Assembly (NCBI RefSeq): GCF_000156375.1
Contig: NZ_DS996355.1
Span: forward strand, 138,045 to 202,044
Length of the DNA: 64,000 nucleotides
Source of the DNA: Desulfovibrio piger ATCC 29098
Lineage (GTDB): Bacteria; Desulfobacterota; Desulfovibrionia; Desulfovibrionales; Desulfovibrionaceae
Direction: 5' to 3'
The first letter of the stretch is position 1. Every line of letters starts with the position of its first letter. Under the pieces are notes generated by a model. It saw only the letters and a list, made by a program, of their open reading frames with translations, did no database searches and was not told the DNA's origin. A program made the position numbers and the translations under genes. Below, in pieces: positions 57,415-64,000 of this stretch.

Positions 57415-58086
57415 ATGCGCATGATCAAATCTCTGGTGCTTGGTGCCGTATCCCTGCTGGCGCTTGCCTCATGGGCGCAGGCCGCCGACCTCGTGGGGGA
57501 TCTCAAGCAGCGTTATGACACTTTGCAGTCCTTTTCCGCCGAGTTTGAGCAAAAGCTCACCCATAAGGAAAGCGGGGCTGTAGAGACCCGTTACGGGACC
57601 CTGCACTTCAAAAAGCCCTTGCTCATCCGCTGGGAAACGAAAAAGCCCATCAAGGAGACCCTGGTGGTCACGGGCAAAGAGATCTGGGATTACATCCCGG
57701 ACGAGGAAGTGGCCTACCGCTATCCTCACGATCTGGTGCAGGATTCCCGCAGCATCATCCAGGTGCTGACCGGTCAGGCCGCGTTGAGCAAGGATTTTGA
57801 TATCAAGGAAGAAGGCACGGAGAACGGGATGCGGAAGATCCGTCTGTATCCCAAAGACCCGACGCCTCAGATGGTCGAAGCCCTGATCTGGGTCGATGCC
57901 CAGACCTTTATCCGTCGCGTGGATCTGGTGGATTTTTACGGTAACCATAACGACGTGAATTTCATCAAGTTCATTCCGGACGTCATGCTGGGGAGCGGCA
58001 CATTCCAGTTCACGCCGCCCAAGGGCGTAGATGTGGAAGACCGCACCGACAAAGCCAAGGTGCAGGAACGCGAGCTTTTCAAGTAG
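57415..58086 (+). CDS. lolA: Outer-membrane lipoprotein carrier protein LolA
   Basis: Periplasmic chaperone that ferries lipoproteins to the outer membrane. The 223-residue product has a signal peptide (residues 1-23, MRMIKSLVLGAVSLLALASW) and the LolA beta-sheet pattern (LQSFSAEFEQKLTHKESGAV ... TRYGTLHFKKPLLIRWET). GGAGGTAACA precedes the ATG, 10 bases after ftsK, so both are probably one transcript. A terminator follows. Confidence 0.93.
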   Translation: MRMIKSLVLGAVSLLALASWAQAADLVGDLKQRYDTLQSFSAEFEQKLTHKESGAVETRYGTLHFKKPLLIRWETKKPIKETLVVTGKEIWDYIPDEEVAYRYPHDLVQDSRSIIQVLTGQAALSKDFDIKEEGTENGMRKIRLYPKDPTPQMVEALIWVDAQTFIRRVDLVDFYGNHNDVNFIKFIPDVMLGSGTFQFTPPKGVDVEDRTDKAKVQERELFK

Positions 58087-58109
58087 CGAACGCATCGTGC
58101 GAAGCGAAC

Positions 58110-58140
58110 AAAAAAGGCCCCGTTTTCCGGGGCTTTTTTT
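58110..58140 (+). terminator. Terminator of ftsK-lolA
   Basis: AAAGGCCCCG-TTTT-CCGGGGCTTT with flanking A and T runs. Confidence 0.9.
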
Positions 58141-58347
58141 GTGTTTTCTCTTCCCCTGTGCCGGCTGCGTACAGGCTTTTTGTCCGGGCTGCAGGTCGCA
58201 GGAGCAGCACAAGCCCTGGATACGCGCGGGGCTTGAGGATCTCTGTCCGTTCCGGAGCAGGCCGTGGGCGGAAGCACGATGTTCGCGATGGACGTTTGGC
58301 GCACTTGGCGTCCCTGCCTCTCTCCGGTCGGGCGCCTGTCCCCTGCC

Positions 58348-58390
58348 TTGACAAAGGCTGCGGAGCACGGGCATTATCCCCATGATGGGG
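58348..58390 (+). promoter_or_regulatory. Possible promoter and palindrome for the 58.5 kb gene
   Basis: TTGACA (58348-58353) with CATTAT 18 bases on (58372-58377). A short palindrome CCCCAT-G-ATGGGG follows at about 58378-58390, where transcription would begin. The remaining 400-base gap (58141-58547) holds no supported gene. Confidence 0.45.
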
Positions 58391-58547
58391 CATTCTCTGA
58401 CCCGGCGGACATGCGGTCCGCAGACGATGGACGCGCGCGACAGCCGGTGGTCAGGCTGTGCACGAAAGAGCATGCCCGGATTCACGACGAGACCGTTTCG
58501 TCCGTATGCGGTGCGCCGTGGCAAAGAGCAGACAAAGGAGTATTCAT

Positions 58548-58976
58548 ATGTCCGCTGACTGGAGCAAGGGCGTTGAGGAACTGTTGCAAGCCTGGCAGAG
58601 CGATCCCCTGAATGCCCGCGCGGCCTTCCTGGCGTATCGTGACTATCTGGCGGGTCTGGAAAACGTCTCGCTGGAATTCAAGGCCCGTCCGGGCGTCAGC
58701 TATTCGCTGCGTGCGCGTAATGCCGCCCAGAAACAGCGTGAGCTGTTCGTCCTGGTGGACGTGGTGGATGACGAACCGGAAAGCCGCTGGCTGTCGGTCT
58801 GCTTCTATGCCGACATGATCCAGGATCCCGACGAGCTGGGCGATTATGTGCCGGCCGGTCTCATGGGCGAGGATGCCTGCTGCTTCAATCTGGATGAAGA
58901 CGACGATGCCATGCGTGCCTACATCGCTGACCGCATCGCCGAAGCTGCCCGCAGTGCGGCAGAGGGCAAGGAGTAG
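58548..58976 (+). CDS. Small conserved-looking protein of unknown function
   Basis: A 142-residue acidic protein without membrane segments (MSADWSKGVEELLQAWQSDP ...). AAAGGAG sits directly before the ATG, so the start and the gene are well supported. Three cysteines occur (CFYADM, CCFNLDEDDDA). I recognise no domain. The exonuclease gene begins six bases after its stop, so it is the first gene of a two-gene unit. Confidence 0.75.
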   Translation: MSADWSKGVEELLQAWQSDPLNARAAFLAYRDYLAGLENVSLEFKARPGVSYSLRARNAAQKQRELFVLVDVVDDEPESRWLSVCFYADMIQDPDELGDYVPAGLMGEDACCFNLDEDDDAMRAYIADRIAEAARSAAEGKE

Positions 58977-58982
58977 CCCCGT

Positions 58983-59504
58983 ATGATGACAGGCCGGTAT
59001 GTGGCCCTTGATTTTGAAACTTCCGGCTATGCGGCCCACAGCGCGTGCGCTGTGGGCCTTTGCCGCATCGAGGATGGCGCGGTGACGGACAGCTTTTACA
59101 GCCTGATCCGTCCGCCGTCCTCCCGCGTTTTGTTCACCCATGTGCATGGCCTGACCTGGCCCCTGCTGAAAGATGCCCCCACCTTCACGGAAGTGTGGCC
59201 GCAGCTGGCGGCCTTCATGGAGGGCAGCCGTGCGATCCTGGCCCACAATGCCGGGTTTGACCGCAGGGTGCTGCACGCATCCTGTCAGGCTCTGGGCCTT
59301 GTGCAGCCGCAGTTGCCGTTTTTATGTACGCTCAAGGGGGCACGGCGTAGCCTGCCGCTGGCATCACGGGCGCTGGACAGCGTTTGCGACTACTTCGGCA
59401 TCCCGCTGGATCACCATCACGCCGGCTCCGACGCCCGGGCCTGCGCAGAGATCTATTTGCGTCTGCATGCGTTGGGCGTCACGGATGGTCAGATGAAATT
59501 GTGA
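58983..59504 (+). CDS. DEDDh-type 3'-5' exonuclease
   Basis: A 173-residue nuclease of the DnaQ/polymerase III epsilon-like superfamily. The four acidic residues and the general base His lie in ALDFETSGYA, LAHNAGFDRRVLHAS and HHHAGSDARACAEIYL, the expected Exo I, II and III motifs. Without additional domains it could act in repair, RNA trimming or nucleotide recycling. It follows the 142-residue gene and is closed by a terminator. Confidence 0.9.
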   Translation: MMTGRYVALDFETSGYAAHSACAVGLCRIEDGAVTDSFYSLIRPPSSRVLFTHVHGLTWPLLKDAPTFTEVWPQLAAFMEGSRAILAHNAGFDRRVLHASCQALGLVQPQLPFLCTLKGARRSLPLASRALDSVCDYFGIPLDHHHAGSDARACAEIYLRLHALGVTDGQMKL

Positions 59505-59525
59505 TGGCTGCCCGGCAGCACAGAC

Positions 59526-59557
59526 AGGAGGCATCCCCGGGATGGCCTCCTTTTTTT
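59526..59557 (+). terminator. Terminator after the exonuclease gene
   Basis: AGGAGGC ... GCCTCCT stem with inner ATCCC/GGGAT pairing and a T-run. Confidence 0.75.
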
Positions 59558-59640
59558 ATGGCTGAAGAATGGCGAACGGGACCCGGGCGGATGAGGAAAG
59601 CCGCCCGATTATATGGAAAGACAACGAGCTGGGAGGATAT

Positions 59641-60096
59641 ATGGATATCGTCCATGTCCGTAGCCATAAAAAAGCCTGGTTGCCGCTCTTGCTCGTAGGG
59701 GATGAGAGCGAGGCCATGATAGACCGTTATCTGGACCGCGGGGAGCTGTTCGTCCTTCATGACCCCGATGCCCGGGGGCTGTGCGTCGTGACCCGGGAGA
59801 GCGAGGGCGTGGCGGAGATCAAGAACCTGGCCGTGGCGGCCCCTTGGCGCAGACGCGGTTACGGCAAGGCGCTGATAGAATTTGTCTGTGCGCGCTATGC
59901 CTCGTCCTGCCATAGTTTGCAGCTGGGGACAGGGGAAGTCCCTTCGACGCTGGCATTTTACCGTGCCTGTGGTTTTGTGCCGTTTGACCGCATCCCTGAC
60001 TTCTTTACCCGCAACTACCCCCAGCCCATCGTGGAAGAGGGCATTCTCTTGCGTGATATGGTGTACCTGCGGCGCCGGCTGTCTGCCGGGAGATGA
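59641..60096 (+). CDS. GNAT-family N-acetyltransferase
   Basis: A 151-residue GNAT enzyme. The acetyl-CoA site is IKNLAVAAPWRRRGYGKALIEF, and the following strand/helix (LGTGEVPSTLAFYRACGFV) is typical. These proteins acetylate amines on small molecules, antibiotics or proteins; the substrate is unknown. GGGAGGATAT lies before the ATG at 59641. Confidence 0.88.
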   Translation: MDIVHVRSHKKAWLPLLLVGDESEAMIDRYLDRGELFVLHDPDARGLCVVTRESEGVAEIKNLAVAAPWRRRGYGKALIEFVCARYASSCHSLQLGTGEVPSTLAFYRACGFVPFDRIPDFFTRNYPQPIVEEGILLRDMVYLRRRLSAGR

Positions 60097-60171
60097 GGCT
60101 GACAGCGTGGAGCCGCCCCGGGAAGAAATGTGTGTCATTTTTTTGAATGATTTGCGCGGAGTTATTCTGAA

Positions 60172-60188
60172 AAGATATTTAATATCTT
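60172..60188. promoter_or_regulatory. Palindrome upstream of the sigma-54 promoter
   Basis: AAGATAT-TTA-ATATCTT, 7-bp arms, 23 bases upstream of the -24 element. It may bind a regulator or a DNA-bending protein. Confidence 0.45.
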
Positions 60189-60210
60189 GTAATCAATGAT
60201 TATTTGCAAA

Positions 60211-60226
60211 TGGCATCCTCTTTGCT
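60211..60226 (+). promoter_or_regulatory. Sigma-54-type promoter of the FliF/FliG-like operon
   Basis: TGGCATCCTCTTTGCT. GG and GC are spaced exactly as in the RpoN consensus (TGGCAC-N5-TTGCA/T), with the -24 GG and -12 GC intact. The predicted start of transcription (about 60237) lies just upstream of the first gene. Confidence 0.75.
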
Positions 60227-60267
60227 AGCTATATGTGGATACAGCTATCCATGGGGGAATTTTGGCA

Positions 60268-61293
60268 GTGTCAGGCAGCAGCATCCAGGAGCGCCACAAG
60301 GGCACAGGACGTACACGGCAGGCCGTATTGGCGGCGGTCGCGTTCGTGTCTCTGCTGCTGGCCGCGTTGATGGGCGGCTTATCCTTGCGGGGAACGGGCG
60401 GATGCGGTGGCAAGGAAAGTGCCGTCGCCCTTCGTCATGAGCAGGAGACGCTGCTGGCCCGGCAGCTGGAACAGTTTTCCTGCATCCGCCAGGTGAAGGT
60501 ACAGCTTGCCCCTCAAAGCTGGCAGCCCGGAGCGGTCATCGTCCTGGAGCCTTCACGGCCGGAAGCCATGCCGGATGCGGCGGCACTGGACAGGATGCTG
60601 GATGTCCTGGCCCTGGTACCGGACGGCCCGGACAAACGCCATGTCCTGGTCTTCGATACGGAAGGACGGCGCCTGTATCCTGATCGGGATACGGACGAGA
60701 CGGCCCGCCGGGAACAGGAAATGGCGCTGGAGCGCCAAGCTCTGCGGGTCCTGCGGCCCCTGCTGGCAGACAACGGAAGGACAGAGGTCCTCGTCAGTCT
60801 GGATGGAACGGGCAAGGAAAAATCCCGGGCAATGGGGCGCCGTACGGTCGCGGTCTTGCTGGAGGAAAATGTCGTTCCGGAGACGGTACGCCCGTATCTT
60901 GAGAGCCTGCTGGGGCAGGCCTGTGCGCTGGAGGAGGAGAGGGGCGATACGCTGCGGATCTGTTTCCTGCCTGCCCGGCGGGATGTGGCTGTACTGCGGG
61001 GCGTGGCCCTGGCTTTTGCCGTGCTGGCTTTGGCCAGCATGGCCGCGTTCTTTTGGACGCGTCGCCGCTTTGCTGTCGCCTCTGTTTCTGCCGGGATGCC
61101 GGTGGAGGGCAGTATGCCGGTTGAGGCTGGTGCGGACAGCGGAGCGCCGGATACCGTGGACTGTCTGCGTCAGCAGGTGGAGGCCCGTATCCGTGAGCAT
61201 CCCGGGCATGGTGCGGCCTTGCTGCGCCACTGGCTGGCGCAGGAAGATGGCATAGCGGAAGGGACAGCAGGAGGACAGGGATCATGCAACTGA
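60268..61293 (+). CDS. Miniature FliF-like MS-ring protein
   Basis: A 341-residue protein related to FliF, the flagellar MS-ring subunit (usually about 550 residues). It has an N-terminal membrane helix (RQAVLAAVAFVSLLLAALMG) and a ring-building motif like FliF RBM2 (LLARQLEQFSCIRQVKVQLA then AVIVLEPSRPEAMPDAAALD). A short RBM3-like part ends EERGDTLRICFLP, matching the FliF 'RGDTL' segment, before a second helix (VALAFAVLALASMAAFFW). The tail REHPGHGAALLRHWLAQED matches the FliG-binding end of FliF. RBM1 and the beta-collar insert are missing. GTG at 60268 follows GGGGGA by 9 bases; an earlier GTG (60235) would lie at the transcription start. Confidence 0.82.
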   Translation: MSGSSIQERHKGTGRTRQAVLAAVAFVSLLLAALMGGLSLRGTGGCGGKESAVALRHEQETLLARQLEQFSCIRQVKVQLAPQSWQPGAVIVLEPSRPEAMPDAAALDRMLDVLALVPDGPDKRHVLVFDTEGRRLYPDRDTDETARREQEMALERQALRVLRPLLADNGRTEVLVSLDGTGKEKSRAMGRRTVAVLLEENVVPETVRPYLESLLGQACALEEERGDTLRICFLPARRDVAVLRGVALAFAVLALASMAAFFWTRRRFAVASVSAGMPVEGSMPVEAGADSGAPDTVDCLRQQVEARIREHPGHGAALLRHWLAQEDGIAEGTAGGQGSCN

Positions 61294-62279
61294 CAGGCAG
61301 CCAGCGTTGTGCCGTCTTCCTCCTGGCCATGGGCGAAGATGTGGCTGCGGACATGCTGGGCGGCATGCAGCGGCAGGAGGTGGCCCGGATAACGGAAGCC
61401 ATGGCCAGTCTGCCGCACGTCCCCGAAAGCGAGGTGCGGGCCATCTTGCGGGAAGCCCGGGTATTCCTTGACACGCAGGCTGACGGCATCTGTGCGGACA
61501 AGGCACTGGCCGGACGTCTGCTGACGCATTGCCTTGGCGAGCGTGAGGCACGGGAGACCATGCGCGCCTGGGGCCCGGCGGACGCGGCGCGGCCGTTCGA
61601 ATCGCTGGAGCGGATGCGCCCGGGTCAGCTCTATCAACTGCTGCGTCAGGAACATCCCCAGACGTTGGCGCTGGTCCTCGGTCATCTTTCCGCTTCCCAG
61701 GCGGCGGGCCTGCTCATGCGCCTGCCTACAGACATGCGCTCTCTGCTGCTGGAACATATCGGCGGACTGACGCCGGTAGATGCGGACATACTGGATGAGG
61801 TGGACAGCGTGCTTGCCCGGCAGGCTGCGGAAAAATCAGCACAGGACTGGCGCCCCGGCCTGCAGGTGGCAGCAGAGATCGTGGCGGCGGCGGGCAAGGA
61901 TGCGGGCAGGGAGCTGCTGGCCGATCTGGAACGGCAAGATTCCCGCTTGCCGGCACTGCTGGGCAGGATGGTGCATTGTCCTGAGGACTGTTTGCAGCTG
62001 GAAGACGGTCTGCTGGAAGAGGCGCTGGAGGAAACTTCCGGTGAAGCTCTGGCCGGGCTCCTGAGCAGCTGTGGGCCTGCCGTACGCGAGGCCCTGCTGG
62101 AGCGTGTGCCGGAGGCACGGCGTCCTGTCATCGAGCGGCGTCTTCGTGATGAGGGGCCGCCCGTCAGCCAGTCGGTGGCATACCGTGAAGAATTTTTGCG
62201 CCGCGTGCGGCATCTGCAGGCGGAGCGCATGCAGGCTGATCTGGATGCGGCAAAAGCCGCCGAGAGGGCCGAAGCATGA
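61284..62279 (+). CDS. FliG-like switch protein outside a flagellar operon
   Basis: A 331-residue homolog of the flagellar rotor protein FliG. All three regions are recognisable: FliG_N (LTGSQRCAVFLLAMGEDVAA), the middle domain with the EHPQ motif (LYQLLRQEHPQTLALVLGHL), and the C-terminal torque domain (VREALLERVPEARRPVIERR). FliG links FliF to FliM/FliN and converts stator force to torque. It overlaps the FliF-like gene by ten bases, with GGAGG upstream, and is closed by a terminator. No other flagellar gene is in the window. Several charged torque-helix positions differ from E. coli FliG. Confidence 0.87.
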   Translation: MQLTGSQRCAVFLLAMGEDVAADMLGGMQRQEVARITEAMASLPHVPESEVRAILREARVFLDTQADGICADKALAGRLLTHCLGEREARETMRAWGPADAARPFESLERMRPGQLYQLLRQEHPQTLALVLGHLSASQAAGLLMRLPTDMRSLLLEHIGGLTPVDADILDEVDSVLARQAAEKSAQDWRPGLQVAAEIVAAAGKDAGRELLADLERQDSRLPALLGRMVHCPEDCLQLEDGLLEEALEETSGEALAGLLSSCGPAVREALLERVPEARRPVIERRLRDEGPPVSQSVAYREEFLRRVRHLQAERMQADLDAAKAAERAEA

Positions 62280-62282
62280 AAA

Positions 62283-62316
62283 AGAGCCCGGAAGACATCT
62301 TCCGGGCTCTTTTTTC
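62283..62316. terminator. Bidirectional terminator after the FliG-like gene
   Basis: AGAGCCCGGAAGA / CTTCCGGGCTCT stem with flanking A and T runs, between the convergent FliG-like and YkgJ-like genes. Confidence 0.9.
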
Positions 62317-62331
62317 AAACTGTTCGCGCGA

Positions 62332-62781
62332 TCATTTGTCCAGGATCAGGGCGTTGGCCTCGCAGCTACGGTCATTGGCCAGCAGGCCATTTTCCTGCAG
62401 ATAGCGCTTGCCCTGGGCGGCAAAGTCGGCATGGCTGATCTCTTTGGGGATGCCGGGACAAAAATCCTTGGCCAGATGCAGGCTGACGGGATCTTCTATG
62501 TTGCCCCGGAAAAAGGGCCAGGCTTTGCAGATGGAAGGTTTGCCCTCATGGACGATGCAGCCCTTGCCTTCCCGGAAAAAGATGCAGTAGCCGTCCTCAC
62601 CCACGCGGATCTTGAGCTTTGTCCCTACATATTCCCCGAACCGGCGTATCACCTCTTCCTCTTCCATGCAGAGGGTGGCACAAAGCCGCTTCAGGTCGGA
62701 GGGGCTGACGACAATACCGCCTTTCCCCTTGCAGCAATGGCCGCACATCTTACAGGAAAAGGCCTGGGTTTCTTGGCTCAT
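62332..62781 (-). CDS. YkgJ-like CxxCxxCC protein
   Basis: A 149-residue protein of the YkgJ/UPF0153 family, defined by the N-terminal CKMCGHCCKGKGG and later CIVHEGKPSICKAWPF. Such proteins are thought to bind Zn or Fe-S; their function is not known. GAGGAT precedes the ATG at 62781. The CoA-binding gene ends 16 bases upstream in the same orientation, so the two are probably an operon. Confidence 0.88.
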   Translation of the reverse strand: MSQETQAFSCKMCGHCCKGKGGIVVSPSDLKRLCATLCMEEEEVIRRFGEYVGTKLKIRVGEDGYCIFFREGKGCIVHEGKPSICKAWPFFRGNIEDPVSLHLAKDFCPGIPKEISHADFAAQGKRYLQENGLLANDRSCEANALILDK

Positions 62782-62797
62782 TTCGATATCCTCAGGA

Positions 62798-63217
62798 TTA
62801 TTTTTGCAAAGTGAGCAGGCGGGCATGTTCGACCATGAGACAAAGGTCTTCCACCACCAGGATCTGTTCAGGCTCCAGCAAAGCCCGTGCCTCGGCAGAG
62901 CGGATGCCTTCCTGCATCCAGAAGCAGAGGGGCTTCCAGGGCAGGGCCAGCACTTCCTGCGCATGGGCGGGGCAGTACTGGGGAGCGCGGAAAAGGTCGA
63001 TGATGTCCACCGGCTGGGGCAGGGACGCCAGATCGGGATAGGCCGTCAGGCCCCAGACGGTCTTGCGGACGGGATGCACCGGAAAGATGGTGTAGCCCTT
63101 GTCCAGCAGGTAGCGGCCCACTTTGTCCACGGGCTGCCCGGCTTTGTCCTTGGCGCCTACGATGGCGATGCTGCGGGATCGCTGGAGTACGTCCCGGATG
63201 GCGGTAAATGAAAGCAT
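62798..63217 (-). CDS. CoA-binding-domain protein (YccU-like)
   Basis: A 139-residue protein with a single Rossmann-like CoA_binding domain as in succinyl-CoA synthetase alpha and YccU: SRSIAIVGAKDKAGQPVDKV, GYTIFPVHPVRKTVWGLTAY, VDIIDLFRAPQYCPA. The exact role is unknown. The start ATG at 63217 follows GGAGGCAAGG; the earlier ATG overlaps that site. Confidence 0.9.
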   Translation of the reverse strand: MLSFTAIRDVLQRSRSIAIVGAKDKAGQPVDKVGRYLLDKGYTIFPVHPVRKTVWGLTAYPDLASLPQPVDIIDLFRAPQYCPAHAQEVLALPWKPLCFWMQEGIRSAEARALLEPEQILVVEDLCLMVEHARLLTLQK

Positions 63218-63340
63218 CCTTGCCTCCATAAGGGATTGCCCCGGCATGGCCGACAGGGGAAGACGAATATACGGGCTGACAGGGACAAGTGCAAGTCTGG
63301 GCCCGGACTTGGTGGAAACTTTGTCCCTGCCATGGAATCA

Positions 63341-64000
63341 TCAGGCCCGGGAGGCCTCCTGCGCGGTCGCAGCCGCGGGGGTGGCGGGGGCTGCACAGAT
63401 GACCGGCTTGACGGCAAAGAGCTTGTCCGTTTTGCCGAACAGGTAGAGCAGGTCCCCGGCTTCCATGACGAAGTCGGCAGGCGGGGAGGCCATCACCTCC
63501 TGTTCGCTGCGGGCCACGGCCACCACGGTCACGGCATATTCCCGGCGCAGATTGCTCTGGGCAAGGCTGAGGCCGCACAAGGGGGAGCCTGCCTCCAGAC
63601 GCATGGTCTGCACGCCCATTTCGGGCAGGCGGCTGGCCACGCTTTCCAGACTGTCCGCGGCGCTGCTCATGCGCCGGATCATGCGGTAGTTCTGCTGGCG
63701 CAGGCGGGCGGAGAATGCGTCGATGTCCTGACGGGGCACCAGATACTGGGTCAGTACCTGGTTGAACACCTCGATGGAGGTCTCGAATTCCTCGGCGATG
63801 ACCACATTGGCCCCCAGACGGCGCAACGGGGCGACCTCGGTGATGAACCGGGTACGGGCCACGATATAGAGGTCGGGGTTCATGCGCCGGGCCTCCAGGG
63901 TGATGGCACGCACGGCCGCCGGATCGGAGATGATGATGGCCAGGACACGGGCCGTATAGACGCCCAGATGCTCAAGGATGACAGGCTGGGAGGCATCCCC
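63341..64000 (-). CDS. C-terminal part of a KefB/TrkA-type transporter (cut by the window end)
   Basis: The open frame continues past 64000. The visible 219 residues begin within a TrkA_N/RCK domain (GDASQPVILEHLGV ... IIISDPAAVRAITLEARRMN) and end with a TrkA_C domain (GLSLAQSNLRREYAVTVVAV) and an Ala-rich tail. The pattern fits a CPA2-type K+/Na+ or H+ antiporter with regulatory RCK domains; the membrane part lies outside the window. Partial. Confidence 0.8.
   Translation of the reverse strand, partial: GDASQPVILEHLGVYTARVLAIIISDPAAVRAITLEARRMNPDLYIVARTRFITEVAPLRRLGANVVIAEEFETSIEVFNQVLTQYLVPRQDIDAFSARLRQQNYRMIRRMSSAADSLESVASRLPEMGVQTMRLEAGSPLCGLSLAQSNLRREYAVTVVAVARSEQEVMASPPADFVMEAGDLLYLFGKTDKLFAVKPVICAAPATPAAATAQEASRA

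Follow-up and report, generated by a model that had tools for sequence, protein, structure and literature searches.

Here we report the analysis of a window of 64,000 nucleotides from Desulfovibrio piger ATCC 29098 (G000:C42:138045-202044; genome of 2,866,203 bases in 46 contigs), in which a miniature fliF and a full-length fliG homolog form a small operon. D. piger, which is common in the human gut and available in culture, is nonmotile (PMC5313605), the lack of motility being stated also in parts of PMC8069399 and PMC3608642. On the whole, we consider it probable that the two proteins, together with a trimmed FliM encoded at a second locus, are retained as a functional complex in the membrane that has a regulatory task or acts as a scaffold. 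Comparison among genomes establishes, at the level of sequence, the homology to flagellar proteins, the domain losses, the ancestral position at two loci, the conserved boxes, the intact frames, the purifying selection and a natural fusion of two of the genes. We infer that FliF, FliG and FliM come together at the membrane as a ring or patch and, with less certainty, that the resulting complex serves in regulation or as a scaffold. No description of a retained FliF/FliG/FliM set in D. piger is found among the literature matches listed.

The pair is compared in four carriers, namely G000 itself, G245, G246 and G211. The contig named Desulfovibrio piger PG-251-APC-1, on which a relative of the pair lies (L056), is taken as part of G245, and the two are counted once; G211, a genome of 2,807,531 bases in one contig, is taken as D. 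piger FI11049; ranges given below for distinct carriers omit the near-identical pair G245-G246. Three flagellated congeners (L081 = G040, L082 = G196, L083 = G154) serve for comparison, and G126, a genus genome of 2.2 Mb, is the negative control. Two overlapping open reading frames (ORFs) lie on the + strand of the window at 60235-61293 and 61284-62279, and the segment 60211-62315 holds a sigma-54-type box, the FliF homolog of 341 amino acids (aa), the full-length FliG and a terminator, with the following features.

60211..60226, + strand: sigma-54-type (-24/-12) promoter box TGGCATCCTCTTTGCT, identical in all four carriers
60253..60257, + strand: probable ribosome-binding site of mini fliF, GGGGG, read from the sequence, in all four carriers
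60268..61293, + strand: mini fliF, 341 aa, with first transmembrane helix, RBM2, collar-less RBM3, second transmembrane helix and probable FliG-binding tail; intact in all four carriers
60448..60783, + strand: RBM2-like segment and start of RBM3, aligned by hhalign to residues 137-263 of full FliF (93%, E 3e-7)
60988..61074, + strand: second membrane helix, helix 241-269 in a low-confidence model and hydrophobic by direct reading
61156..61242, + strand: probable FliG-binding C-terminal tail, modelled with low confidence as two short helices, 297-310 and 314-325
61284..62279, + strand: fliG homolog, 331 aa, with N, M and C domains by Pfam
61650..61661, + strand: EHPQ motif, in all four mini FliG and 49 of 49 other FliG
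62115..62141, + strand: A, R, R at the torque positions R281, D288, D289, in all four mini FliG
62278..62315, + strand: intrinsic terminator, hairpin and T run, the T run present in three of the four carriers and not in G211

For mini fliF, GTG 60268 is the best candidate start by sequence and would give a product of 341 aa, the length already assigned in the initial annotation; it is preferred because the conserved GGGGG precedes it and because the frame of the earlier start is disrupted in G211 by a 1-nt deletion. As a single query, mini FliF has no significant match in Pfam (YscJ_FliF included), NCBIfam or PDB, and tblastn with the FliF of one congener does not detect it in the window at 1e-3. 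Used as the query against relatives, it matches FliF in 22 of 199 family genomes including its own (best other E 1.4e-7); phmmer against 21 FliF ORFs gives 2e-11 to 7e-8, and one profile-profile comparison with full FliF gives a global alignment at 95.9% (E 3e-9), which skips RBM1 and the beta-collar. The view that the upstream protein is FliF-like and lacks both elements is thus borne out. In local alignment, residues 72-183 (352-aa numbering) correspond to RBM2 and the start of RBM3 with the values listed above, and residues 221-246 in the same numbering to the end of RBM3 at 42% only (E 3e-4). The two membrane helices that had been proposed hold as hydrophobic stretches by reading, with helices 13-39 and 241-269 in the low-confidence model; the proposed FliG-binding tail aligns with the end of FliF globally, and its local score is not significant. 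In the single-contig genome G211, mini FliF and FliG share an uninterrupted frame of 689 aa; the two are naturally fused, and the FliF tail runs straight into FliG.

The second gene is a full-length FliG homolog, as first annotated, with FliG_N (3e-22), FliG_M (1e-22) and FliG_C (8e-11) all above the Pfam cut-offs; it reaches 128.8 bits with the NCBIfam fliG equivalog, under the cut-off of 226.7, and matches solved FliG structures at 3e-20. The EHPQ motif, which we take to be the FliM-binding motif of FliG_M, is invariant. Quite different are the charged positions R281, D288, D289, K264 and R297, whose numbering and role in torque we assume here. The R281 position is R in 49 of 49 other FliG and A in the four mini FliG; D288 is E/D in 49 of 49 and D289 in 46 of 49, and both are R in all four minis; K264 and R297 are K/R in 49 of 49, and no mini has either residue there (D, S, H and S, P, respectively). 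Where at least 95% of the 49 others agree, the minis retain the residue at 4 of 7 positions in the N domain, 9 of 12 in the M domain and 6 of 26 in the C domain.

The initial annotation had described a module of two genes. A search with the FliM middle domain in eight genomes finds one divergent copy per carrier (E 1.5e-9 to 1.4e-7), an ordinary FliM in the three flagellated controls (E about 1e-70) and no copy in G126. The copy of the window's own genome is placed as follows.

G000 C38:741353-742057 (L126:9354-10058): trimmed fliM, 234 aa, PF02154 E 6e-8, above the Pfam cut-off

The length is 234 aa in all four carriers, and the other three copies are 83-93% identical to that of G000. The SpoA domain is absent from this ORF, and a search for its relic within 2 kb after the fliM start gives one non-significant match in G000 (E 0.19) and none in the other three. 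The protein begins MSSILSQEEIAALL, with the N-terminal motif LSQEEIAALL in all four carriers, a start which we take to resemble the CheY-binding N-terminal motif of FliM. On the 5' side, RACo-like and Rsm22-like neighbours (families assigned with Pfam for G000 and G040) are present in all four carriers and all three flagellated congeners, while the 3' neighbours differ between G000 and G040. A box lies 50 nt 5' of the trimmed fliM in each carrier, TGGCCTTGTTCTTGCA in G000 and TGGCCTCGTTCTTGCA in the other three, with the common form TGGCCT[T/C]GTTCTTGCA, and another, TGGCCTTTATCTTGCA or TGGCCTTTTTCTTGCA, lies 80-88 nt 5' of fliM in the three flagellated congeners. Judged by gene order and sequence, the trimmed fliM stands where fliM stood ancestrally and follows a conserved sigma-54-like box. 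Because it is kept in all four carriers, the module is not one of two genes. Taking the domain losses and the FliG residue counts together, the losses or alterations fall on the parts facing the rod and export gate (RBM1 and collar of FliF), FliN (SpoA of FliM) and the stator (charges of FliG), and the elements by which FliF, FliG and FliM contact each other appear to be kept.

For the origin of the pair, two upstream genes are informative.

58983..59504, + strand: RNase_T exonuclease, the synteny anchor, whose homolog is followed by flgB in the three flagellated congeners examined
59569..60096, + strand: GNAT acetyltransferase, between the anchor and mini fliF

In all three flagellated congeners the exonuclease homolog is followed by flgB, flgC, fliE, fliF, fliG and fliI (by Pfam in L081, by tblastn in L082 and L083). 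A FliH-like gene precedes fliI in L081. The window has the exonuclease followed by GNAT, mini fliF and mini fliG. A FliG tree of 53 rows unites the four minis with 100/100 support; the branch leading to them measures 3.45 changes per column, and a split supported at 99/99 separates the four minis and 29 Desulfovibrio rows from five family and 15 phylum rows. The tree program warns of long branches and of the deviating letter make-up of the mini rows, and the tree suggests that mini FliG groups with Desulfovibrio FliG without resolving whether it falls inside or beside the rest. Horizontal gain of the pair is rejected by the synteny and the tree. Because of the shared exonuclease synteny and this grouping, the pair is, as read from sequence, a vertically inherited remnant of the ancestral flgB-flgC-fliE-fliF-fliG-fliI locus, and not an independent system.

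The promoter box TGGCATCCTCTTTGCT scores 9 of 12 and is invariant at 16 of 16 columns in the four genomes, where the flanks have 18 of 25 and 23 of 30 columns identical. Shortly 5' of fliF the flagellated congeners carry TGGCATGGCAATTGCT (two genomes) or TGGCATAGCTCTTGCT (one), which the window box resembles; what precedes the window box is similar to the sequence in front of the flgB box of G040 (TGGAACGCTTGTTGCT). With this likeness to both, the window box may descend from the ancestral fliF box or from the flgB box. Flagellar genes of D. vulgaris are under sigma-54 control according to a part of PMC4641369. At the other end the terminator hairpin has an energy of -28.5 kcal/mol (z -9.3), and from box to terminator the operon stands alone, as first described. 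Seven flagellar operon proteins of a congener were searched against the window, and FliG alone matched. Rfam detects no RNA in 58000-64000.

We then present the distribution of the pair. A FliG match of some kind is found in 62 of 79 genus genomes, and the close form in the four carriers only. Identity to the window FliG is 89, 89 and 82% in G245, G246 and G211, and 32-37% in other congeners, a range excluding two weak partial matches in G234 and G257. Mini FliF adjoins mini FliG in all four carriers by tblastn. In a survey of the phylum covering 395 genomes, FliG_N is present in 243 and a rod match in 248, and seven, picked by eye (243-7 = 248-12 = 236), have FliG_N without a rod match: G000, G263, G305, G567, G596, G616 and G631. 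Four of them have a strong FliG (G000, G263, G305, G616) and the other three weak FliG matches. G305 is rejected as a rod-less case, with flgB, flgC, fliE, fliF, fliG and fliI found by tblastn, and G263 as a comparable case, its FliG lying on a contig fragment of 3.2 kb. G616 (91% complete, 6% contamination) carries, close to the end of a contig, FliG and a FliF ORF of 531 aa, an ordinary length; the 6 kb before them give no match for flgB, flgC or fliE (L134, G616:C211:8300-17996). Two scans of viral contigs give no relative of the pair. As a separate observation, G330, G390, G485, G525 and G580 (family f49), among others, have weak FliG_N matches (E about 1e-8 to 1e-10) despite rod matches, and so represent divergent FliG forms. 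Also, a 1.6-Mb genus genome has a FliG reading with one TGA and two TAA (G209:C1:143910-144788), a flagellar decay unlike the window pair.

The search for rod domains gives no match in the four carriers or G126 and eight each in G040 and G196, and that for MotB no match in the four carriers or G126 and one each in G040, G196 and G154. The FlhF profile has no match above the family cut-off in any of the eight genomes, flagellated ones included. An ORF of 352-382 aa matches the FlhF N-terminus in the three flagellated controls and none does in the carriers or G126, where FlhF-family matches are longer ORFs only, without this N-terminus, presumably signal recognition particle GTPases; weak FlhF matches (8e-4) lie in ORFs of 785-802 aa in three carriers. 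Since the PF00460 rod profile missed flgB/flgC of G305 that tblastn found, each single absence is soft, and it is the agreement among them that counts. One FHIPEP (FlhA) and one FliMN_C match each occur in the four carriers and G126, on separate contigs in G245 and with about 20 kb between them in the other four genomes, and these single homologs in the carriers look like injectisome parts. In G000 both the FHIPEP (SctV) and FliMN_C homologs are on C43, the same contig as homologs of SctC, SctD-like, SctJ (PF01514 E 5e-21), SctK, SctN, SctQ and SctR and of an SseC-like translocator (L024, G000:C43:146000-165000); two of the three SctD-type matches are below the Pfam cut-off. The pair and these type III secretion system (T3SS) genes are on different contigs in G000, about 80 kb apart in G211 and about 325 kb in G246, and fliM is at yet another place, apart from both. 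G126 has the T3SS-type FHIPEP and FliMN_C homologs, but no FliG, FliM, rod or MotB match.

Selection was estimated from the rates of nonsynonymous (dN) and synonymous (dS) change. Between distinct carriers, whole-gene dN/dS is 0.33-0.38 for mini FliF, 0.16-0.21 for FliG and 0.19-0.39 for mini FliM, and in the omitted pair G245-G246 it is 0.27, 0.24 and 0.10, respectively. Bootstrap intervals for whole genes lie below 1, with three of six genome pairs tested for mini FliF and FliG and six of six for FliM. The M domain is the most constrained of FliG (0.07-0.11 in three pairs). Among neighbours (G245-G246 again omitted), the exonuclease, YkgJ-like, CoA-binding-like, lolA and ftsK genes, the last four under names we assume, have 0.03-0.18 and GNAT 0.20-0.35; lolA and ftsK are not found in the G211 stretch. 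The frames are intact in all four genomes at dS up to 0.57, and dS of mini FliM is not raised (0.21-0.29). These intact frames, with the intervals below 1, bear out the earlier view that the operon is not simple decay.

Several observations weigh against the retention of a functional complex. Boxes such as that of the window are common, with 16 scoring at least as high on the same strand of the 64 kb, so the promoter box alone is weak evidence; similarly, G154 has another score-9 box 259 nt 5' of fliM. The dN/dS of mini FliF and FliG exceeds that of most neighbours, which fits a partly relaxed constraint, and dS of the pair between distinct carriers is 0.36-0.57 as compared with 0.18-0.48 for most neighbours. 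For short pieces (linker, FBM tail, second transmembrane helix, N-terminus, FliG tail) the intervals are wide and reach or pass 1 in some pairs. AlphaFold2 monomer models, made from two sequences each, are poor (pLDDT 44 and 53), the co-occurrence of FliM with the pair has a single negative control, G126, and the aspartate of the CheY-binding-type motif is replaced in the trimmed FliM (LSQEEIAALL). In C. jejuni, alteration of the FliF motif ASVXV abolished FlgS signalling, as a part of PMC7064773 reports, and this site reads GAVIVL in mini FliF and SASVVL in congeners.

Some of these points would suit three slow relics, flagellar genes without function that by chance have not decayed since the flagellum was lost. 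Vertical remnants at ancestral positions, the dN/dS of mini FliF, the raised dS of the pair and the interrupted FliG reading of G209, a decay of such kind nearby, are all in line with this. However, frames remain open in four genomes at the divergence given above, the dN/dS intervals are below 1 for all three genes, sigma-54-like boxes are kept at both loci, and the FliG branch, long as it is, shows no stops; moreover, what has been kept, at two separate loci, are the three rotor proteins that bind one another. We thus regard relics as unlikely. Lower still we place an accessory ring of the injectisome, in which mini FliF, FliG and FliM would add to or modulate the T3SS base or cytosolic platform. 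The genome does have an injectisome locus, whose SctQ bears the very FliMN_C (SpoA) domain that FliM lost, an FHIPEP homolog is present in all four carriers, and in G211 the distance from the pair to the FHIPEP and FliMN_C genes is about 80 kb; but the T3SS has its own SctC, SctD-like, SctJ, SctK, SctN, SctQ, SctR and SctV, the pair is not adjacent to it and fliM is elsewhere again. Because the injectisome has its own parts and G126 has the T3SS-type genes without the pair or FliM, the secretion platform suggested in the initial annotation is unsupported. The second motor, also suggested there, is the least credible, with hardly any chance of being right: rotor proteins are indeed kept, but MotB has no match in the four carriers and one in each flagellated control, torque residues are lost or reversed in all four minis, and the sole FliMN_C match is T3SS-type, hence no FliN. 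The motor and export functions of the trio are therefore unlikely, and of the three jobs proposed earlier a regulatory assembly is the most plausible, though unproven.

For the retained FliF-FliG-FliM complex we propose the following course. The D. piger lineage would have lost its flagellum while a rotor core whose parts contact each other stayed under selection. The shortened FliF would sit in the inner membrane, FliG would bind the FliF tail, and the shortened FliM would bind FliG; the input might be, e.g., a response regulator acting through the CheY-binding-type N-terminus of FliM, or alternatively a sensor kinase, as FlgS with FliF and FliG in Campylobacter jejuni. More tentatively, and short of calling it probable, the trio may form a ring free of stator and flagellum, controlled by sigma-54, receiving response-regulator or kinase input and serving signalling or scaffolding outside motility and secretion. 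If this is true, selection has kept and trimmed the rotor/switch core after the rod, the export set and the stator were gone, giving it a role outside both swimming and secretion. The trio is relevant to the questions of which FliF parts a membrane ring requires and of whether the switch complex has a signalling role in its own right, and with a cultured host and a natural FliF-FliG fusion, ring formation and function are directly testable.

Finally, we compare the trio with known systems. It shares with the flagellar MS-ring/C-ring core the sequence homology, the ancestral loci, the sigma-54-type boxes, the probable FliG-binding tail, the EHPQ motif, the FliM middle domain and a FliM-like N-terminal motif in which the aspartate is replaced. 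It differs in that no rod, flagellar export gate, stator, FliN or FlhF is detected in the carriers, FliF lacks RBM1 and collar, FliM lacks SpoA, and the torque charges are lost or reversed. Three further precedents are available, none identical to the D. piger case. According to parts of PMC7064773, FliF and FliG of C. jejuni first form the MS ring and rotor and then interact with FlgS, and systems of V. cholerae and Pseudomonas aeruginosa also require FliF/FliG; the likeness is a FliF/FliG platform read by a two-component kinase that activates sigma-54 genes. This checkpoint, however, as described there, belongs to the building of a flagellum around its export core, and no flagellar export core is found in D. 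piger. Non-flagellated Lysobacter enzymogenes kept the export genes flhA, flhB and fliI and lacks a FliG homolog, as parts of PMC9927559 state; it is thus likewise a case of flagellar genes retained and reused after the loss of flagella, whereas D. piger kept rotor genes and its sole FHIPEP homolog is injectisome-type. Single-cell genomes of oral Desulfobulbus have FliG, FliM and others without rod, hook or filament proteins, but these genomes are incomplete, FliN, FliP, FliQ, MotA and MotB are also reported, and a trimmed FliF or FliM is not among the features described in the relevant part of PMC3608642. The ring proteins SctJ/PrgK of injectisomes presumably resemble mini FliF in having RBM domains anchored in the inner membrane; they differ in that G000 has a separate SctJ, and mini FliF adds to such domains a second transmembrane helix, a probable FliG-binding tail and a partner gene for FliG.

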